DNA of 64,000 nucleotides from Thioalkalivibrio thiocyanodenitrificans ARhD 1 (lineage in GTDB: Bacteria > Pseudomonadota > Gammaproteobacteria > Ectothiorhodospirales > Ectothiorhodospiraceae), in assembly GCF_000378965.1 (NCBI RefSeq), contig NZ_KB900536.1:1790052-1854051 (forward strand), read 5' to 3'. Positions 28,289 through 62,915 of the stretch are shown in pieces; position 1 is the first letter of the stretch, and each line of letters begins with the position of its first letter. The notes below the pieces were generated by a model. The model saw only the letters and a list, made by a program, of their open reading frames with translations, was not told the origin of the DNA and did no database searches. A program made the translations under genes and the position numbers.

Positions 28289-30120
28289 ATAGGGGCGGTC
28301 AGCATAGCTGACCGTTCCCCTGCCACACCACCCGGCATGCGGGTCCGCACCGGGCGGTTCGAGAAGTTGAGGTCATGAGAGACGCGGCACTCCCAGCCGC
28401 TCAAAATAGGCAATCGTCAGCACGTGGTGCACGGCAGAGAGGCTGTTATGCCACCAGCGGCGGCTCAGCGCCGCCACCGATTGCGCCACCCGGGCACTGG
28501 CTCCCAGCCGGATCAGTTCCCGGTAGATCGTCTTGCCGCGTCGCCACTGTTTGAGCTGCAAGGACCGTAGGCGGCGGCGTATCCACTCGTCCAGCCTGCG
28601 CCAGACACTGGGGGTTTGCGCCAACCCAAAGTACCCTTTCCAGCCCAGCAGATAACTGCGCAACCTGCCGATCACCTCTGCCATGCTGCACCCGCTGTTG
28701 CGCCGGGTCAGTTGCCTGACCCTCTGCCTGAACGCCTCCAGCGCCTTTTCCGACACCCCGCGTCGCACCTCGCCATCCCCGGACCGCCACAGGGCGTAAC
28801 CAAGGAATTTGCGGCCGAATACGCGGGCCACCGCACTCTTGGATTCATTGATCCGCAAGCGCAGTTTGTCGTAACAGCGCCGCAGCAGACGCATCACCCG
28901 CTCGCCCGCCTTCTGACTGCGCACGTACACGTTGCAGTCGTCGGCGTAGCGGGCGAAGCGATGGCCTCTGCGTTCAAGCGCTCGATCCACTTCGTCCAGC
29001 AACACGTTGGCCAACAGCGGCGAGAGCGGGCCGCCCTGCGGCGTCCCCCCCACGCGCTCGATCACCACACCGCCATCCAGGATGCCCGCGCTCAGGTAGG
29101 CACGCACCAGCCGGATGACCCCGGCATCGTTCACGCGCCTGCTCAGGCGCTCGATCAGGATGTCGTGGTTGACCCGGTCGAAGAACTTCGACAGGTCGAT
29201 GTCCACCACGATGTGGCAACCTTGGCTCACGTAGCGCTGCGCGGCCAGCACCGCGTCCCGCGCCCGGCGACCGGGACGGAACCCGTGGCTGTGCTCGCTG
29301 AAGGTCGGATCAATCTGCGGTTGCAGCACTTGCAGCAGTGCCTGCTGAATCAGACGGTCGGTGACGGTGGGTATCCCCAACTCCCGTTCGCTCCCGTCCG
29401 GCTTCGGGATGCCCACGCGCCGCACAGGCTGCGGCCTGTACGTGCCGTCCAGCAACTGCTGCCGGATGCTCGGCCATGCGTGTTTGAGGTGTTCTCCCGT
29501 CCGGGCTATGTCCAGACCGTCAACACCCGCAGCTCCCTTGTTTGCCTTCACGCGCTTCCAGGCGCGTTGCATGTTCTCCCTCGCGAGCGCCTGCGCCAAC
29601 AGGTCCCGCCCTGCGTCCTCCGATCCTCGTCGCGGGAGGCCGGTTTCATCGCTGGTCCTTCGGGGCAGGGCTTCACCCTGGCCGTTCACAACCCGCCCCG
29701 CTGATGCGGGCATCTGATGCTCTACCGTTCTCATCGACAAGGCGTTTGACGCTCCTTCTCGTTCGGCCCTTCGCCCCTTGTTGGCAGCTACTACGGCCTC
29801 TGCTGACTTCTCGCTCCGGCTCTACACCGTCGCCCTTTCAGGCACAAGGCGAGATCTCCCCGGGTAAGAACGCACCCCTTCACCGCACAACCGCCGCATT
29901 TACGCCGCTTCGCCTTGGCCACGAGAGCTTCGCGGCTTCTTGCCCGCTCGCCCTGCTCGGCAGCGCCTTGTATCCGGTTCTTGTCCATCGGCTCGCGGTT
30001 TACGCTCCACGCTTCCTCCCCACGGTCGGTCACCCTTCCGCAGTTGCGCTTCGCTTCGTTCGCTGTGGCCAGCTTACGGGGGGACTTGCACCCCCAGGAG
30101 TGCGCCCGTGCCGGGCGCAC
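28289..30120 (-). mobile_element. Group IIC intron, complete
   Basis: About 1.83 kb on the minus strand. The 5' end GTGCGCCCGGCACGGGCGCA at 30120 matches the GUGYG consensus, and domain I follows with TGGGGGTGCAAGTCCCCCC. The maturase frame occupies domain IV. Domain V is at 28327-28358, and a domain VI stem ends in CCCCTAT at 28289. The 5' junction directly follows a terminator stem and T run, the known target preference of class C introns. Boundaries were set by eye. Domains I-III (about 29741-30120) contain no gene. Confidence 0.88.
28373..29734 (-). CDS. ltrA: Group II intron reverse transcriptase/maturase
   Basis: 453-residue intron-encoded protein. The reverse-transcriptase fingers and palm include GIPKPDGSERELGIPTVTDR, VDIDLSKFFD, GTPQGGPLSPLLAN and the catalytic YADDCNVYV. 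The X/maturase domain (SYLLGWKGYFGLAQTP) follows. The protein ends after the maturase and DNA-binding region without an HNH endonuclease, as expected for class C introns. All key residues are intact, so it may be active. The start is ATG 29734; a TTG two codons upstream is possible. Confidence 0.93.
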   Translation of the reverse strand: MRTVEHQMPASAGRVVNGQGEALPRRTSDETGLPRRGSEDAGRDLLAQALARENMQRAWKRVKANKGAAGVDGLDIARTGEHLKHAWPSIRQQLLDGTYRPQPVRRVGIPKPDGSERELGIPTVTDRLIQQALLQVLQPQIDPTFSEHSHGFRPGRRARDAVLAAQRYVSQGCHIVVDIDLSKFFDRVNHDILIERLSRRVNDAGVIRLVRAYLSAGILDGGVVIERVGGTPQGGPLSPLLANVLLDEVDRALERRGHRFARYADDCNVYVRSQKAGERVMRLLRRCYDKLRLRINESKSAVARVFGRKFLGYALWRSGDGEVRRGVSEKALEAFRQRVRQLTRRNSGCSMAEVIGRLRSYLLGWKGYFGLAQTPSVWRRLDEWIRRRLRSLQLKQWRRGKTIYRELIRLGASARVAQSVAALSRRWWHNSLSAVHHVLTIAYFERLGVPRLS

Positions 30121-31779: not shown

Positions 31780-32994
31780 ATGCCGCTTGAGGATACCGAT
31801 CGCTGCGTCATGTGCGGGCTGTGCCTGCCCCACTGCCCCACCTACGGGCTCACCCGGCAGGAAGGGGATTCCCCGCGCGGACGCATCAGTCTCATGCAGG
31901 CCCTGGCCGGCGGACAACTGCCGGCGGATGACCGCCTGACCGCGCATCTGGACGGCTGCCTGGGCTGCCGGGCCTGCGAGGCCATGTGCCCGTCCGGCGT
32001 GCCCTTCGGGCGGCTGATGGATGAAGGCCGTGCACTGCTGCGGGAGATGCGGGAGGATCGCCCGAAGCTACCGGCCCTGGCACGCCCCCTGTTGCGCAGC
32101 GATCGGATCGGGCGCAGTGCCGCCGCGCTGCTGCACGCCTACCAGCGCAGCGGGGTCCACGGCACCCTGTCGCGCGCGCTGGATCGGGGCCGTCTCGGGC
32201 GGGCCCTGTCGCTGCTGCCGCCCGGTGCTGCCCCGGCCATCCCCGGAGGCCTCCACAGGCCCGCGGGCACACCCCGCGGCCGGGTGAGCCTCTTCACCGG
32301 CTGCACGGGCGCGGCCTTCGAGGGCGGGGCGCTGGCGGCGGCCCGCGACCTGCTGCTGGCCCTGGGCCACGAGGTGGACATACCGGGAGGTCAGGATTGC
32401 TGCGGGGCACTGGACCTGCACGCGGGCGATGCCGCGGCGGCGCGTGCCTGCGCCACACGGAACCTGGCGGCCCTCGGGGCACCGGATACCCCGGTGATCG
32501 CGCTCAACAGCGGTTGTCGCACCCAGCTGCACGAATATGCGCAACTCCTGCCCGGGGAGGCCGGCGGCACTTTCGCCGACCGGGTGCGCGATCTGTGCGG
32601 CTTCCTCCTGGAGCAGGACCTGGAGTCACTGACCGTCGATTCACGCCCGGCCACGGTGGCCGTGCACCTGCCCTGCACCCTGCGCAACGTGCTCAGGGAA
32701 CACGGCGCCATGCTGGCACTCCTGCGCCGCCTGCCGGGCACCGAGGTGGTGGAGCTGGAAGGCAACGCGTACTGCTGCGGCGCCGCCGGTACGCACATGA
32801 TCTCTCACCCGCAGGCCGCCGATGCGCTGCTTGCGCCCAAGATCGAGGCGGTCAGGCGACTCGGCCCGCAGGCGGTCATCACCGCCAACATCGGCTGCAG
32901 CCTGCATTTTCAGGCAGGATTGCGGCAGGCGGACATCGACATCCCTGTGGTGACACCGGCGGAATGGATTTGGTCGCTTGTCAGTGGTCAGTAG
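31780..32994 (+). CDS. glcF: Glycolate oxidase iron-sulfur subunit (GlcF-like)
   Basis: 404-residue Fe-S protein. Two [4Fe-4S] motifs are at Cys9-12-15-19 and Cys60-63-66-70, followed by two cysteine-rich CCG domains (GGQDCCGALDLH and EGNAYCCGAAGTH). This is the layout of GlcF, which passes electrons from glycolate dehydrogenase to the quinone pool. glcD/E are not adjacent, so a related (Fe-S) oxidoreductase subunit is possible. The last residues LVSGQ and the TAG stop are encoded within the left arm of a heptamer element. Confidence 0.85.
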   Translation: MPLEDTDRCVMCGLCLPHCPTYGLTRQEGDSPRGRISLMQALAGGQLPADDRLTAHLDGCLGCRACEAMCPSGVPFGRLMDEGRALLREMREDRPKLPALARPLLRSDRIGRSAAALLHAYQRSGVHGTLSRALDRGRLGRALSLLPPGAAPAIPGGLHRPAGTPRGRVSLFTGCTGAAFEGGALAAARDLLLALGHEVDIPGGQDCCGALDLHAGDAAAARACATRNLAALGAPDTPVIALNSGCRTQLHEYAQLLPGEAGGTFADRVRDLCGFLLEQDLESLTVDSRPATVAVHLPCTLRNVLREHGAMLALLRRLPGTEVVELEGNAYCCGAAGTHMISHPQAADALLAPKIEAVRRLGPQAVITANIGCSLHFQAGLRQADIDIPVVTPAEWIWSLVSGQ

Positions 32995-33068
32995 TCCGTT
33001 GAAAAATGCGACAATCTACTGACAACTGACAACTGACAACTGACAACTGACAACTGACAACTGACCAA
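32978..33068. repeat. CTGACAA heptamer element between glcF and coq7
   Basis: The left arm CTTGTCAGTGGTCAGTAG (32978 on) is degenerate and contains the glcF stop. The right arm has six perfect CTGACAA units plus one variant (33019-33067) and ends four bases before the coq7 ATG. The core of about 17 bases is between the arms. Confidence 0.88.
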
Positions 33069-33713: not shown

Positions 33714-33721
33714 GAGCGCCA

Positions 33722-33810
33722 GAGACAGGATACAAGAGGCAAGATACAAGAAAGGGCGGCGGGGCAACTCAAAGCCTCCCTCTTGTATCTTGCATCTTGT
33801 CTCTTGTATC
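33722..33810. repeat. ATACAAGA inverted word element between coq7 and speD
   Basis: Left arm 33722-33756 (GATACAAGAGGCAAGATACA) and right arm 33778-33810 are imperfect inverted copies of ATACAAGA/CAAGAT words around a 21-base core. The right arm reaches the first base of the speD stop codon complement. Confidence 0.8.
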
Positions 33811-34622
33811 TAACTCTTTCCTATATTCTTCCCGTAGAAGATCTCCGCCATCTCCCGTTGCAGCAGGCGCTCGATGCGCTTGAGGTCCTTGGCGGAATAA
33901 TCTTCCTTGCCCAGGCCGAACAGGTAGTTGTCGATGTCGAACTCCTTGATCAGCATCTTGGTGTGGAACAGGTACTCCTGGTAGACGTTCACATCCACCA
34001 TCTGGTAACGGTCCTGGGTGTCCCTGGACAGGAAGTTCTGGATGGAGTTGATCTTGTGGTCGATGAAGTGCTTCTTGCCGCGGATATCCCGGGTGAACCC
34101 GCGCACCCGGTAGTCCATGATCACGATATCGGACTCCAGGCTGTGGATGAGGAAGTTCAGGGCCCGCAACGGTGAGATGCGCCCGCAGGTGGACACATCG
34201 ATATCGGCGCGAAAGGTGCTGATGCCGCCGGCCGGGTGGCTCTCAGGATACGTATGCACCGTGATGTGGCTCTTGTCCAGATGGGCCAGCACGGTCTCGG
34301 GCAGCGGCCCCGGACCCGGGGGCTCGGTATAGCCGATCTTCTCGGTGGCGACGGGTTCCTCGGAGATCAGCATGGTGACGCTGGCCCCCTGGGGCTCGTA
34401 GTCCTGGCGGGAGATATCCAGAACGTTGGCACCGATGATGTTGGCCACCTCGGTGAGGATCTGGGTGAGCCGCTCGGCGTTGTAGGCCTCGTCGATGTAC
34501 TCGATGTACTCGCCCCGATGCTGCTCGCTGGGCGCATAGCAGATATCGTAGATGTTGAAGCTCAGGCTCTTGGTGAGGTTGTTGAAACCGTGGAGCTTGA
34601 TGCGCTTGTTGTGAGGTCCCAC
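33810..34622 (-). CDS. speD: S-adenosylmethionine decarboxylase proenzyme
   Basis: Pyruvoyl enzyme supplying aminopropyl groups for spermidine. It is 270 residues from a GTG at 34622 (E. coli 264), with self-cleavage expected between Lys117 and Ser118 in [16 protein letters not shown]. Conserved [14 protein letters not shown] starts near residue 9. An in-frame ATG at 34670 is rejected because a strong promoter overlaps it; a TTG at 34625 is an alternative. GGGGAC lies upstream as a weak ribosome site. The neighbourhood speD-OsmC-vfr-trpC matches Pseudomonas. Confidence 0.93.
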
Positions 34623-38660: not shown

Positions 38661-38742
38661 GTGGCAAGTAAAGGCATAAAGGTCCCGGTCGCCAATGCAT
38701 ACGGGATTCCTTGCCACTTGAGACTAGCCACTGGCCACTGCC
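38661..38742. repeat. CAAGTGGC word element between trpD and trpG
   Basis: A short left arm GTGGCAAG (38661) and a long right arm, 38707-38742, with TTGCCACTTGAGACTAGCC then CACTGGCCACTGCC. The last codons and TAG stop of trpG (38724-38726) lie within the right arm. The same vocabulary is at 49757 and 62824. Confidence 0.8.
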
Positions 38743-39320
38743 TTCATAGCCAGGAAGTTGCGCAGCAGGTCGTGACCATGCCGGGTCAGGATAGACTCCG
38801 GGTGAAACTGCACGCCTTCCACGGGCAGGGACTTGTGGCGCACGCCCATGATCTCGTCCATGGCCCCGTCGGGGGTCTCGGTCCAGGCAGTGATCTCCAG
38901 GCAATCGGGCAGGCTGTCCTTCTCGATCACCAGCGAGTGGTAGCGGGTGGCTTCGAAGGGATCGGGCAGGCCTCGGAAGACACCCTGACCCGTGTGATGG
39001 ATGAGCGACGTCTTGCCGTGCATGATCTCCCGGGCGTGCACCACCCTGCCCCCAAACGCCTGGCCGATGGCCTGGTGCCCCAGGCACACGCCGAGCAGCG
39101 GGATCTCGCCGGAGAAGCGCCGGATGGCCTCCAGGGACACCCCCGCCTCGTTGGGCGTGCAGGGCCCCGGCGAGATCATGATGCGCTCGGGCGCAAGCGC
39201 GGCGATCTCCTCCACCGTGAGCGCGTCGTTGCGCCGCACGTCCACCTCCGCCCCCAGCTCACCCAGGTACTGCACCAGGTTGTAGGTGAAGGAATCGTAG
39301 TTGTCGATCATAAGAATCAT
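38724..39320 (-). CDS. trpG: Anthranilate synthase component II (glutamine amidotransferase)
   Basis: 198-residue class I glutaminase supplying ammonia to TrpE. The nucleophile is Cys79 in [17 protein letters not shown], and the His/Glu pair is in [13 protein letters not shown] 39320 begins [20 protein letters not shown]; upstream in-frame codons come from repeat sequence. The C-terminus AVASG and stop are encoded by a repeat arm. An inserted GxxExxY element separates it from trpE. Confidence 0.97.
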
Positions 39321-39374
39321 GCCTGGATAACCTCGACCGGAAAGCCGCGACAGCAAACCGTGACAGAGAACCGC

Positions 39375-39851
39375 GACGCAAAGCCGCGATGACGCAAAGG
39401 AACGCAAACCTTCTTCACCACTGACTTAGAGGCCGTTGACCACTCTGCGAATACCGTGGCGGAGTTGCGGAGCATTGAAGTTGATCAACAGACCCAACCG
39501 CAAACCGCTCAGGCGCAGATACGAGAGCAGCTGTGCCAAATGCAGCGGTTGCAGGTTCTCCACCGCCTTCAACTCCACTATCAACCGGTCCGCCACCAGT
39601 ATATCCAGCCGATACGCGGCATCGAATGCGACACCCTTGTACTGTGCATTAAGGGGCACCTCCGATCGGTAATCGACACCCCGCAGGTCCAATTCCCGGC
39701 ACAGGGCCTGGCGATAGACAGACTCCAGCAAACCGGTCCCCAGCACTCGATGCACCTCCAAGGCCGCCCCCACCACTTCGTACGACAGCGCATTTTCATC
39801 CATGATCTCGTCCTTACTTTGCGATCCTTTGCGTCTTCGCGTCTTTGCGTC
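39375..39851 (-). mobile_element. GxxExxY element with GACGCAAA terminal inverted repeats
   Basis: 477-bp unit between trpE and trpG. The 34-base ends (39375-39408 and 39818-39851) are inverted copies matching at 31 positions, each made of GACGCAAA/CGCGA-type words. They bracket a single gene for a GxxExxY protein. The same ends, without the gene, occur at 59241-59352. The unit is read in the same direction as the trp genes, so transcription can pass through. Mobility is inferred from this architecture; target duplications were not identified. Confidence 0.7.
39426..39803 (-). CDS. GxxExxY protein (PD-(D/E)XK-like)
   Basis: 125-residue protein of the GxxExxY family: the name motif is G24-LLE27-SVY30. 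A PD-(D/E)XK nuclease-like core is visible as Asp67 (YRLDILV) and Glu77-x-Lys79 (VELKAVENL), preceded by HxVLGxGLLE. The family has no settled biochemical function. ATG 39803 gives the usual length. It is flanked by terminal inverted repeats and interrupts the trpE-trpG junction, so it looks like the cargo or mobilising enzyme of a small element rather than a Trp gene. Confidence 0.88.
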   Translation of the reverse strand: MDENALSYEVVGAALEVHRVLGTGLLESVYRQALCRELDLRGVDYRSEVPLNAQYKGVAFDAAYRLDILVADRLIVELKAVENLQPLHLAQLLSYLRLSGLRLGLLINFNAPQLRHGIRRVVNGL

Positions 39852-39871
39852 GAACGCCGTTGACTTTGACC

Positions 39872-41341
39872 CTACTTCAGCCCCGCCTCCGCCATGGCCA
39901 CGGCACGGAACACGGCGCGGCCCTTGTTCATGGTCTCGGCCCATTCGTTGTCCGGGACCGAATCGTGCACGATACCGGCGCCCGCCTGGATGTGGAGCTG
40001 GCCGTCCTTGATCACGGCGGTACGGATGGCGATGGCCGTGTCCATGTTGCCGGCCCAGGACAGGTAACCGACGGCGCCGGCATAGATGCCGCGCTTGACG
40101 GGCTCCAACTCGTCGATGATCTCCATGGCGCGGATCTTGGGGGCGCCGCTCACGGTGCCGGCCGGGAAGGTGGCGCGCAGCACATCCATCGCGCTCATTC
40201 CCTCCTTCAGATGCCCGGTAACGTTCGAGACGATGTGCATCACGTGCGAATAGCGCTCCACCACCATCTGTTCGGTGAGCTGCACGCTGCCGGTCTCGCT
40301 CACCCGCCCGGCATCGTTACGCCCGAGATCGATGAGCATCAGGTGTTCGGCGCGCTCCTTGGGATCGGCCAGCAGTTCCGCCTCAAGGCAGCGATCCTCA
40401 TCCTCGGTGGAACCTCTGGGACGCGTCCCGGCGATGGGACGCACGGTGACCGTGTCGTCCTCCAGGCGCACCAGGATCTCCGGGGAGGAACCCACCACCT
40501 GGTGATCGTCCAGATCCAGGAAGAACATGTAGGGGGACGGATTGAGGCTCCTGAGTGCCCGGTAGAGATTCAGGGGAGGCGCGCCGAACGGGATGGATAG
40601 ACGCTGCGACAACACCACCTGCATCACGTCACCCTCGACAATGTACTCCTTGCAGCGGGCGACGGCGGCCTTGAAACCATCCTCGGTGAAGCCGGAGACG
40701 AAATCCGATTCACGCACCTTGCGGGCATCCGCGCCGGACACCGGGACAGCCGCGGACTCACCGAGTCGCCGACGCAATTCGTCCAGCCGCTGCTCGGCCG
40801 CGGCAAGACCTGTTTCCGGCCGGGCATGGACCACCAGGTACAGCCGTCCGGCCAGGTTGTCGTAGACCACCACCTCGTCCGAGACCATGAGCAGAATGTC
40901 CGGCACTCCCAGAGCGTCGGGTTTCTCCACGCCCGCAAGCCGCGGCTCGATGTAGCGGATGGTGTCGTAACCGAAGTAGCCCACGAGTCCGCCCGTGAAG
41001 CGGGGCAGCCCCTCGATCTCCGGTACACGCTGCCGGGCCTGAAACCCTTCCATCCAGGCGAGCGGGTCATCCACCTGCGTGTCCTCCACGACCGTCCCCT
41101 CGTCCTCCACGGTCACGTGCCGGCCGCGCACCTTGACCACGGTGCGGGCGGGCAGCCCGATGAATGAGTAACGCCCCCACTTCTCGCCGCCCTGCACGGA
41201 CTCGAACAGGTAGGAAAAAGGCGCGGCGGCAAGCTTGAGGTAGATACTCAAGGGAGTGTCCAGGTCCGCCAGGATTTCACGGACCAGGGGGATACGGTTG
41301 TATCCCTGGCGGATCAGTTCATTGAATCGTTCAGGGGTCAT
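39872..41341 (-). CDS. trpE: Anthranilate synthase component I
   Basis: 489-residue chorismate-using subunit. The C-terminal chorismate-binding domain has [47 protein letters not shown] and [20 protein letters not shown]. The N-terminal half has the LESxxxG-like feedback region replaced by [18 protein letters not shown]. It follows gph by 124 bases with no clear Trp-rich leader peptide, so attenuation is not evident. Confidence 0.98.
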
Positions 41342-43733: not shown

Positions 43734-43830
43734 AGCCACAGAGGACACAGAGGGCACAGCAAAACAGGTAATGACAACCAGGGGCATCCTCCATTTCGGC
43801 TTGCCTTTCGTCTCTGTGACCTCTGTGGCT
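43734..43830. repeat. CACAGAGG inverted word element
   Basis: AGCCACAGAGGACACAGAGG (43734-43753) and its inverted partner (43811-43830) match at 18 of 20 positions around 57 bases. The words recur singly at 13345 and 37550. With the hairpin before it and the terminator after it, this fills the 387-base gap up to the cytochrome gene. Confidence 0.8.
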
Positions 43831-50191: not shown

Positions 50192-50397
50192 TTGTCAGTT
50201 GTTGTCAGTTGTCAGTTGTCAGTTGTCAGTTGTCAGTTGTCAGTTGTCAGTTGTCAGTTGTCAGTTGTCAGTTGTCAGTTGTCAGTTGTCAGTTGTCAGT
50301 TGTCAGTTGTCAGTTGTCAGTTGTCAGTTGTCAGGAGCGTAATCGGCCCCGGAGGCATGTCAACGGGTCTTTACAACGGACCACTGACAACTGACAA
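50192..50397. repeat. TTGTCAG array: 19 perfect tandem heptamers
   Basis: One TTGTCAG (50192-50198), a three-base break, then 19 uninterrupted copies (50202-50334). After a 47-base core come inverted partners GGACCACTGACAACTGACAA (50378-50397). It lies between the start of the CPCC gene and the terminator of fba. There is no spacer structure, so it is not a CRISPR. Confidence 0.97.
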
Positions 50398-50428
50398 AAA
50401 AGGCACAAGGGCGAACCCCTGTGCCTTT
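50396..50428 (-). terminator. Intrinsic terminator of fba
   Basis: On the minus strand, GGCACAGGGG-TTCG-CCCTTGTGCC is followed by six T residues. It overlaps the last bases of the heptamer element. Confidence 0.88.
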
Positions 50429-59240: not shown

Positions 59241-59352
59241 ACCGCGACGCAAAGACGCAAAGACGCAAAGGGGCGCAAAGTTTTTTTGAGTTCTTGAAGA
59301 TCAAGAGGTTTACTTCGCGATCCTTTGCGTCTTTGCGACTTTGCGTCGCGGT
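59241..59352. mobile_element. Gene-less GACGCAAA inverted-repeat element
   Basis: 112 bp. The 40-base ends (59241-59280 and 59313-59352) are inverted copies matching at 36 positions, around a 32-base core starting with T7. The end words GACGCAAA/CGCAAAGG are those of the GxxExxY element at 39375-39851. It is likely a non-autonomous derivative. It lies between metK and the SAH riboswitch. Confidence 0.75.
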
Positions 59353-62097: not shown

Positions 62098-62835
62098 ATG
62101 CGCCTGACGCGGTTGTTCCTGGACCAGCCGTTGGCGGTCGGCGCAGACATCGACCTGGATGAACACGCGCACCGCCATGCCGTTCAGGTCCTGCGCCTGC
62201 GCCAGGGAGCGGAACTGGTGCTGTTCAATGGGTCGGGGGGCGAGTACCGGGGGAGGCTGACCGAGGCGTCAAGGCGCCGGTCCCGGGTCACGCTCACGGC
62301 CTTTGACGACCGTGACACCCGCCCTGCACTGCACGTCACCCTTGTCCAGGGTGTCTCCAGGGGAGACCGCATGGACTTCAGCCTGCAGAAGGCCACGGAA
62401 CTGGGGGTGACCCGTGTCATACCGGTCATCACGAAACGCAGCCGGATCCCCGGCGACTCCCGCCGTCTGGACAGTCGTCATGAACACTGGCGGGGTGTGA
62501 TCATCAGTGCCTGCGAGCAATGCGGGCGCAATGACCTGCCTGTGCTGGATCCGGTGACCACCCTGGAACACTGGCTGACAAACCGACCGGAAGGCCACGC
62601 CCTGGTGCTGGACCCGCAGGCCGGAACAGGTCTCGCCGACCGCGCGCCCGACGGCCCCGTCCAGCTTCTCATCGGCCCGGAAGGGGGTCTGGACGGAACC
62701 GAGATTACGGCGGCACGGCATCAGGGACTGCAGGGGGTGAGTCTGGGCCCCCGAACCCTGCGCACCGAAACCGCCGGCATCGCCGCACTGGCGGTGATTC
62801 AGGCGTTGTGGGGGGATTTAAGAGGCAGTGGCTAG
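62098..62835 (+). CDS. rsmE: 16S rRNA (uracil-1498-N3)-methyltransferase
   Basis: 245-residue SPOUT (trefoil-knot) methyltransferase. The PUA-like N-terminus (HAVQVLRLRQGAELVLFNG) is followed by QKATELGVTRVIPV and the knot motifs LLIGPEGGLDGTEI and SLGPRTLRTETAGIAAL. The TAG stop is created by the left arm of a repeat element, so the final residues RGSG come partly from it. Confidence 0.96.
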   Translation: MRLTRLFLDQPLAVGADIDLDEHAHRHAVQVLRLRQGAELVLFNGSGGEYRGRLTEASRRRSRVTLTAFDDRDTRPALHVTLVQGVSRGDRMDFSLQKATELGVTRVIPVITKRSRIPGDSRRLDSRHEHWRGVIISACEQCGRNDLPVLDPVTTLEHWLTNRPEGHALVLDPQAGTGLADRAPDGPVQLLIGPEGGLDGTEITAARHQGLQGVSLGPRTLRTETAGIAALAVIQALWGDLRGSG

Positions 62836-62915
62836 TCTCAAGTCTCAAGTGGCAAGGAAAGGACAATCCCTGAACCGGCTTCCTTGCCACTTGAGACTTG
62901 AGACTCGCCACTGCC
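62824..62915. repeat. CAAGTGGC/CAAGTCT inverted element between rsmE and the CheW-like gene
   Basis: Two 35-base arms (62824-62858 and 62881-62915) are inverted copies matching at 34 positions around a 22-base core. The single mismatch forms the TAG stop of rsmE in the left arm. The right arm ends two bases from the stop of the convergent gene. Confidence 0.95.

Follow-up and report, generated by a model that had tools for sequence, protein, structure and literature searches.

A GxxExxY gene enclosed by inverted arrays of short DNA words is probably part of a system resembling REPIN/RAYT, in which the GxxExxY nuclease is dedicated to the word ends as their partner and, acting in trans, spreads copies that lack the gene. 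Arms are found at these loci and are associated with the gene, the word class agrees with the protein clade in cis and also, though not without exceptions, in trans, the active site is conserved, the gene is under purifying selection, and the hairpins at a given site vary. The partnership of nuclease and words is well supported, and cutting and movement are what we infer. This gene-in-word-hairpin arrangement suggests a mobile DNA system that may be previously undescribed.

The GxxExxY element between trpE and trpG

The window is a stretch of 64,000 nucleotides from Thioalkalivibrio thiocyanodenitrificans ARhD 1. It contains a GxxExxY gene (39426-39803, minus strand; TIGR04256/PF13366) that encodes a PD-(D/E)XK nuclease-like protein of 125 amino acids. 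The host gene upstream of the element is trpE (39872-41341, minus strand; TIGR00564, 582 bits), and the host gene downstream is trpG (38724-39320, minus strand; TIGR00566, 283.4 bits), after which trpD and trpC follow. The protein matches TIGR04256 with 141.9 bits (cut-off 35) and PF13366 with 139.5 bits (cut-off 22). No other NCBIfam model was matched up to E 0.1, hence not TIGR02436, and PF13366 was the sole Pfam match up to E 1, with no match to a Y1 (HUH) transposase; with these two families as its only matches, no known transposase domain was matched by the window protein.

The left inverted arm (39374-39408, plus strand) is an array of the 8-base word GACGCAAA and its variants, and the right arm (39818-39852, minus strand) is the mirror image of the left-arm words. 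Each arm is 35 nt long, and the two are 91% complementary and 409 nt apart. The sequence-only reading had described ends of 34 bases agreeing at 31 positions around a single 125-codon gene between trpE and trpG; a recount on the sequence gave the same 31/34, and coordinates and profiles agree on the bracketed gene. The window has 8 occurrences of a 13-base word pattern, GACGCAAAGNCGC with up to one mismatch, where 0.54 would be expected, and a 17-base pattern with two mismatches allowed occurs 97 times in the host genome against 14 for its reversed control, so the window arms are not due to chance. Mechanical open reading frames traverse the word arms at 39374-39407 and 39804-39944, where that of trpG begins at a TTG in the left arm and that of GxxExxY at an ATG within trpE; automatic start calls are therefore likely wrong here. 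Elsewhere in the window, two Rfam matches to group II introns (RF01998 and RF02001) lie on the minus strand at 29766-30039.

The structure model of the window protein (pLDDT 95.6, pTM 0.89), together with the alignment, has the PD-(D/E)XK core fold with its active-site residues. The best structural match was SSO0001 (Foldseek E 9.7e-4; Z 9.7 over 100 residues), which we take to be a Cas4 protein. Further matches were lambda-type exonucleases, a restriction-endonuclease-like protein (Z 8.3) and Cas4 chains (Z 6-7), and the catalytic domain of I-Bth0305I was a weak match (rank 20, E 0.15); Z values of this level indicate a shared fold, not a function. A sequence search of solved structures gave a best E of 0.48. 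Asp67, Glu77 and Lys79, which had been read from the sequence as a PD-(D/E)XK-like site, bear this out in an alignment of 46 sequences, in which Asp67 and Lys79 are invariant and Glu77 is nearly so. Across 179 proteins, the aspartate is conserved in 178, the glutamate in 175 (with aspartate in 4 more), the lysine in 178 and the glutamine of the QxxxY motif (Gln91 and Tyr95 in the window protein) in all 179. The ratio dN/dS was 0.04-0.28 in 14 of the 15 measurable pairs (16 tried, four with dS above 1), which is purifying selection; the exception (0.50) was a pair with very few changes. As judged from sequence and model, the GxxExxY protein is most likely a functioning nuclease. A role as an anti-phage defence gene was rejected as unconvincing, with a best PADLOC-DB match of E 0.031 and 11.1 bits over 42 residues.

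Word arms and protein clades

TIGR04256 was surveyed in 398 genomes of the phylum sample, of which 65 had a match (64 above the cut-off), and in 58 relatives, of which 17 had a match. A further 80 loci came from a collection of genome contigs; they were the best-scoring for an alignment dominated by the ..AG class and were not chosen for arms, so the proportions by phylum are not representative. For the arm score, the left flank was aligned to the reverse complement of the right flank, and the controls had the same geometry shifted along the loci, which was feasible for 139 of 183 loci. That other GxxExxY genes might also have inverted ends proved true of most: of the 172 loci with full flanks, 121 reached a score of at least 20 and 148 a score of at least 16, compared with 4 and 37 of the 748 shifted controls, and 24 of the 172 loci had no arms at the lower level. 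When only the 128 loci with full flanks for which controls could also be made are counted, 90 scored at least 20. An arm aligned to its own partner scored at least 20 in 123 of 175 loci, compared with 232 of 7000 alignments to arms of other loci; three loci duplicated between collections were kept in this test and removed for word typing and for the count of 172.

Arms scoring at least 16 were found in Acidobacteriota (8/8), Verrucomicrobiota (9/9), Planctomycetota (7/7), Bacteroidota (5/9), Ignavibacteriota (3/5), Thermodesulfobacteriota (2/3) and Chloroflexota (2/2), as well as in Pseudomonadota, in single loci of Cyanobacteriota, Spirochaetota and others, and in one of two archaeal loci; the one Fidelibacterota locus had none at this score. 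The median length from outer end to outer end was 491 bases (137 loci at a score of at least 18). A consistent three-word arm was present at 103 of 153 typed loci, and ..AG-class arms (213 arms) have in common an outer end that resembles TT(A/C)AC ahead of the first word. A search of 50,697 phage records gave no GxxExxY match at E<=1e-5, and matches were found in 7 plasmid records.

These controls contradict the reading that low-complexity repeats happen by chance to flank small genes. The words are indeed short and purine-rich, as it would have them, and its probability is next to negligible given the shifted and cross-locus controls and a hairpin detector that found 0 hairpins in each of three shuffles of four stretches in which 6, 18, 21 and 9 were observed.

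Words were sorted into classes by the base at their end and typed at 153 of 183 loci, those with an arm score below 16 being left untyped. Proteins with a GLLES-type motif have words ending in ..AG, mostly 8 to 10 bases apart; those of the GFLEKVYENAL type have ..AT words, mostly 10 apart; and four of the GFLExVYQEC type have ..AA words, 9 apart. The idea that all GxxExxY genes would have GACGCAAA-type ends was thus too narrow, because the words vary by clade. On the protein tree, the three classes require 2 changes, the minimum, against a shuffled mean of 22.9 (140 loci; reached in 0/300 shuffles), and after dereplication at 70% identity 2 against 12.6 (96 loci; 0/300). Within the dereplicated ..AG clade, word spacing required 20 changes against 26.0 shuffled (0/300), and the choice of CAC or CGC required 15 against 24.3 (0/300). 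The nearest other protein predicted the word class for 62 of 62 labelled copies in the phylum survey. Left out of the tree test were 11 loci classed as other, the C-class locus L144 and one ..AG locus without a usable protein; L230 was set to other by hand, its regex matches lying within a long coding-like alignment, and three ACAGGAT-type loci were placed in the T class by rule. Gene and arms share their descent, so by itself the tree test is evidence of cohesion and not of recognition.

The host genome has a second GxxExxY gene (C1:2233726-2234070), which lies between what appear from the sequence to be the two glycyl-tRNA synthetase subunit genes. Its inverted arms consist of the 9-base word CACAGAGGT, and with different arm words at the two GxxExxY genes, each gene carries its own words.

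The same architecture occurs with an unrelated protein. Among the hairpins in syntenic regions, some are built of 7-base words with a span as long as a gene, and the gene in one of them encodes a four-helix-bundle protein of family TIGR02436 (L249:680-1097). Arms scoring at least 18 were found at 36 of 48 TIGR02436 loci (L262-L315, not dereplicated) against 4 of 179 controls, and the best period of arms at this score was 7 in 67 of 72. Two unrelated proteins with the same architecture and different word lengths make it hard to explain either gene as a passenger.

Gene-less hairpins and their sites

The window also contains gene-less hairpins. One of them (59241-59352), upstream of a SAH riboswitch, has the same 8-base words as the window arms and had been overlooked in the sequence-only reading; as single-stranded DNA, it folds with -47.8 kcal/mol (z -12.2 against shuffles). 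A second (43734-43830) has 9-base words CACAGAGGN. Four more have 7-base words, the length associated with the four-helix-bundle gene, namely GTCAGTN at 32970-33068, the AGANACA type at 33721-33811, GTCAGTT at 50199-50400 and AGTGGCA/AGTCTCA at 62824-62915. Throughout the host genome, copies of the 17-base pattern are mostly gene-less inverted pairs, roughly 80-170 bases across, and their interiors look mutually unrelated by eye, except in a tandem set. This set (L042:563-1303; G000:C1:2172562-2173302) comprises four 8-base-word hairpins spaced by about 194 bases with partly shared interiors.

Plain deletion of the gene element was tried as a source of the gene-less hairpins. A GxxExxY remnant (E<=0.001) was recognisable in 1 of 20 stretches (18 from the host genome, one of them with four tandem hairpins, plus the window hairpin and the trp copy of congener G398), and that one was the G398 copy, so deletion is not a general origin or the remnants are too decayed.

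Gene-less arrays lie elsewhere in the genome than the gene, which makes them a more independent test than the tree. At least 10 arrays of ..AT 10-mers were present in 4 of 4 relatives whose ..AT-class gene is of that word type (30 in G400, 22 in G401, 12 in G416 and 13 in G428) against 0 of the other 54, three of which had 1 or 2 (p=2.4e-6; this and the other array p-values are descriptive, because the genomes are phylogenetically non-independent). At least 19 ..AG arrays were present in 13 of 15 relatives with an ..AG-class gene against 0 of 43 without (p=3.3e-11), the two misses being G440 (0 arrays, 75% complete) and G445 (2 arrays). In G416 and G428, where the only class of gene is ..AT, there were 1 and 0 ..AG arrays, and the crossed associations of class and array among the 58 relatives were not significant (p=0.27 and 0.21). 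Gene classes and counts of the relatives were typed by hand. In the phylum sample of 398 genomes, at least 5 ..AT arrays were found in 11 of the 17 genomes that encode an ..AT-class protein against 6 of 381 that do not (p=1.6e-13), and among genomes with a typed GxxExxY gene in 11 of 17 against 3 of 47 (p=4.3e-6); here, counts and the assignment of loci to genomes were made by hand, gene classes were taken from the nearest labelled protein, and the ..AT pattern misses the ACAGGAT-type words of L091, L108 and L163.

There are exceptions in both directions. Arrays without a detected GxxExxY gene were found in G037 (31), G402 (16), G108 (14), G451 (13), G005 (9) and G263 (9), and at least 5 ..AT arrays in six phylum-sample genomes without an ..AT-class gene. 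Conversely, ..AT-class genes occur without arrays in G138, G144, G161 and G227, and with few in G201 (2) and G176 (3). Incomplete assemblies are among these, yet G037 and G108 are 99% and G451 and G138 100% complete. The 31 arrays of G037 consist of 9-base words of the CACAGAG type.

A functional link between the GxxExxY protein and the word ends is likely on this evidence from sequence. The sequence-only reading had proposed that the protein acts on its own ends, as a minimal mobile element or a homing-type system. Its core, the relation of protein and ends, gains from word classes that track the clade and from gene-less arrays that tend to match; cutting, transposition and homing would each be a further step. 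It had also called the gene cargo, too weak a word if the partner is specific.

It is quite unlikely that another enzyme, such as a Y1/RAYT transposase, moves the hairpins with GxxExxY as a passenger. The host genome does have 9 Y1_Tnp matches, and some genomes have arrays without a detected GxxExxY gene. Sorting by word class, both in cis and in trans, is not what one would expect of a passenger, nor is the sorting of two unrelated genes by word length. A RAYT as main driver was set aside with a small probability left to it: a count of 8-base words and 9-base word pairs at the 8 Y1 loci inspected, of 9 matched, gave no array and one single 8-base word.

Orthologous sites were compared between genomes. 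Beside trpE, a GxxExxY gene or remnant with arms is present in the host genome and in four congeners (G398-G401). The trpE-side words are of the 8-base GACGCAAA type in the host and G400 and of a different type in G398, G399 and G401. In G398, trpE and trpG are 94-95% identical to those of the host, and the gene is internally deleted with both arms retained around the remnant. The trpE-side gene of G399 matches the profile only from position 18 on, and in G401 (L152, L153) trpG is apart from trpE while the element stays on the trpE side. Three genomes from within the family have 1.1-1.8 kb of other sequence between trpE and trpG, in which two-word runs of this type are absent. The comparison of trpE junctions that had been suggested therefore gave a gene or remnant with arms in 4 of 4 congeners and no clean empty site; the apparent empty sites inspected in congeners held degenerate or different hairpins or other sequence, and empty sites were seen in other genera only. 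Neither this result nor the ends at most other GxxExxY genes refutes the sequence-only reading. As the trpE-side site is occupied throughout the genus sample, the window element need not be a recent insertion. By-eye inspection recognised no target-site duplication.

Hairpins at fixed sites change their words. The site of the 59241 hairpin has a same-word hairpin in G400, different-word hairpins in G399 and G401, and none in three genomes of another genus. In syntenic stretches, 51 occupied orthologous site pairs comprised 23 with the same words and 28 with different words, the cut-off for same words (0.75 of the smaller within-element score) being arbitrary, so that a few pairs in each group are doubtful; in 61 further orthologous comparisons, the detector used found no hairpin. 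Concentric nesting also occurs: G400 has a ACAGGATT-type hairpin within a CGCAGAGG-type hairpin, and in G399 the nest is three layers deep. An attractive explanation is that hairpins insert into existing ones, and other routes could also yield nesting. Nested hairpins are seen at L249:9547-9709, L253:18760-19030 and L157:1392-1555, one of them with an innermost GTAGGTTGGGGTGAGG inverted repeat.

The main rival is a hairpin of RNA or DNA that serves the gene or host as a terminator, RNase III site or means of autoregulation, with a nuclease that benefits the host and nothing that moves. The closest model for it is the 23S rRNA intervening sequences, hairpins with a four-helix-bundle gene that are cut from RNA without splicing. 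Strong hairpin folding, an element kept beside trpE in 5 of 5 genus genomes compared, the four-helix-bundle family with the same architecture and purifying selection on GxxExxY would all fit such a structural or RNA-processing role. Nested hairpins and the tens of class-matched arrays per genome in several genomes do not, and different words at 28 of 51 orthologous pairs are unexpected for a fixed regulatory hairpin. This rival is weakened by the class-matched gene-less copies and the different words at fixed sites, and we regard it as unlikely.

Recent transposition was sought and not seen: all 21 of the 21 pairs with gene DNA identity of at least 80% (in three of which both loci come from one contig present in two collections) have at least one flank in synteny. 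The best sign of transfer into the same site is the pair L052/L059, whose genes are 93.8% identical within syntenic flanks of 76.7 and 79.3%; at sequence level, this hints at such a transfer. It also bears on homing, in which the nuclease would cut empty orthologous sites and recombination would copy the element in, as does the word type at the trpE junction, which differs between species. The profile of element against flank clearly favours movement in 1 of 11 orthologous pairs and is not a general rule, and in most of the other 10 the element is near or below flank identity. With 1-5 gene copies at different places of one genome and dispersed gene-less hairpins as well, homing is quite unlikely.

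Possible mechanism, known systems and meaning

In the preferred reading, in which the nuclease serves the word ends, the gene and its inverted arms would form a very small gene-in-hairpin element with a median of about 0.49 kb, and the PD-(D/E)XK protein would be the dedicated partner of one word class. The protein may bind the spaced words of each arm, often three, and the substrate is probably the two arms folded as a cruciform or hairpin. Nicking or cutting would then take place at the element ends, and the unit or its gene-less form would be copied into intergenic sites, often ones that already hold another hairpin. Gene-less hairpins of the same words would be its non-autonomous companions and depend on it in trans, in the way proposed for REPINs and RAYTs.

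REPIN/RAYT systems consist of dispersed inverted pairs and a cognate protein encoded beside the same repeats (PMC3116915). The likeness extends to dispersed hairpins formed by a pair of inverted repeats, to a cognate gene that neighbours repeats of its class, to the presence of several such classes in one genome, each with its protein alongside, and to a proposed spread in trans (PMC3116915). Genome-dispersed hairpins of the cognate class are present in the host genome and, with exceptions, elsewhere. In contrast to RAYTs, the GxxExxY protein is PD-(D/E)XK nuclease-like and not a Y1 transposase, its gene lies inside the hairpin, each arm is an array of 8-10-base words where a REPIN has one palindromic REP, and its word class follows the protein clade across phyla. 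The GxxExxY system works like REPIN/RAYT without being a member of it, since its protein is no Y1 transposase; the 8 Y1 matches inspected, of 9, do not lie beside 8-base or 9-base-word arrays.

Other known systems share parts of this organization. Like the 23S rRNA intervening sequences with S23/TIGR02436, the element has a tiny gene in an inverted-repeat loop, and TIGR02436 is found here in 7-base-word arms; unlike them, its protein is unrelated, its word length is different and it lies between protein genes. Insertion sequences with terminal inverted repeats have inverted ends around one gene, and MITEs are gene-less relatives with the same ends. GxxExxY loci have both inverted ends and gene-less copies with the same ends, but no known transposase domain was matched and no target duplication recognised, the gene-less copies share words and apparently not interiors, and the ends are variable word arrays. 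I-Ssp6803I is a PD-(D/E)XK homing endonuclease; it and I-Bth0305I resemble the GxxExxY protein as small nucleases of the same superfamily that are the sole gene of their element, and differ in that GxxExxY has repeat arms, dispersed gene-less copies and a location in neither intron nor intein. Nucleases of the Cas4/RecB type share the best fold match, SSO0001, and the pattern of D, E-x-K and QxxxY, whereas the window protein is a stand-alone core of 125 amino acids next to trp genes and not to CRISPR adaptation genes.

In open-access literature, judged mostly by titles and abstract openings, GxxExxY/PF13366 is named by three papers and in passing only, and no link of these genes to word arms was found. 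GxxExxY and four-helix-bundle proteins are considered together in what follows. To our knowledge, neither protein has an assigned role, and both occur in many environmental genomes.

A broader reading, which we put slightly under an even chance, is that these loci form a class of minimal mobile elements, each with a gene in the loop of a hairpin whose arms are word arrays, and that the word acts as an address specific to the protein, with 7-base words for the four-helix-bundle protein and 8-, 9- and 10-base ..AG, ..AA and ..AT words for clades of the Cas4-like nuclease. Gene-less hairpins would be moved in trans by these proteins, preferentially into other hairpins with concentric nesting as the outcome, and would seed much of the short inverted-repeat content of intergenic DNA in many environmental bacteria and some archaea. 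If the word arms are substrates, two orphan families would gain a function together, a large class of unexplained short repeats would gain an owner, and the match of clade and word would be a ready specificity code for in vitro testing. A nuclease of 125 residues that reads spaced words of 8-10 bases would be an unusually small sequence-addressed DNA enzyme.
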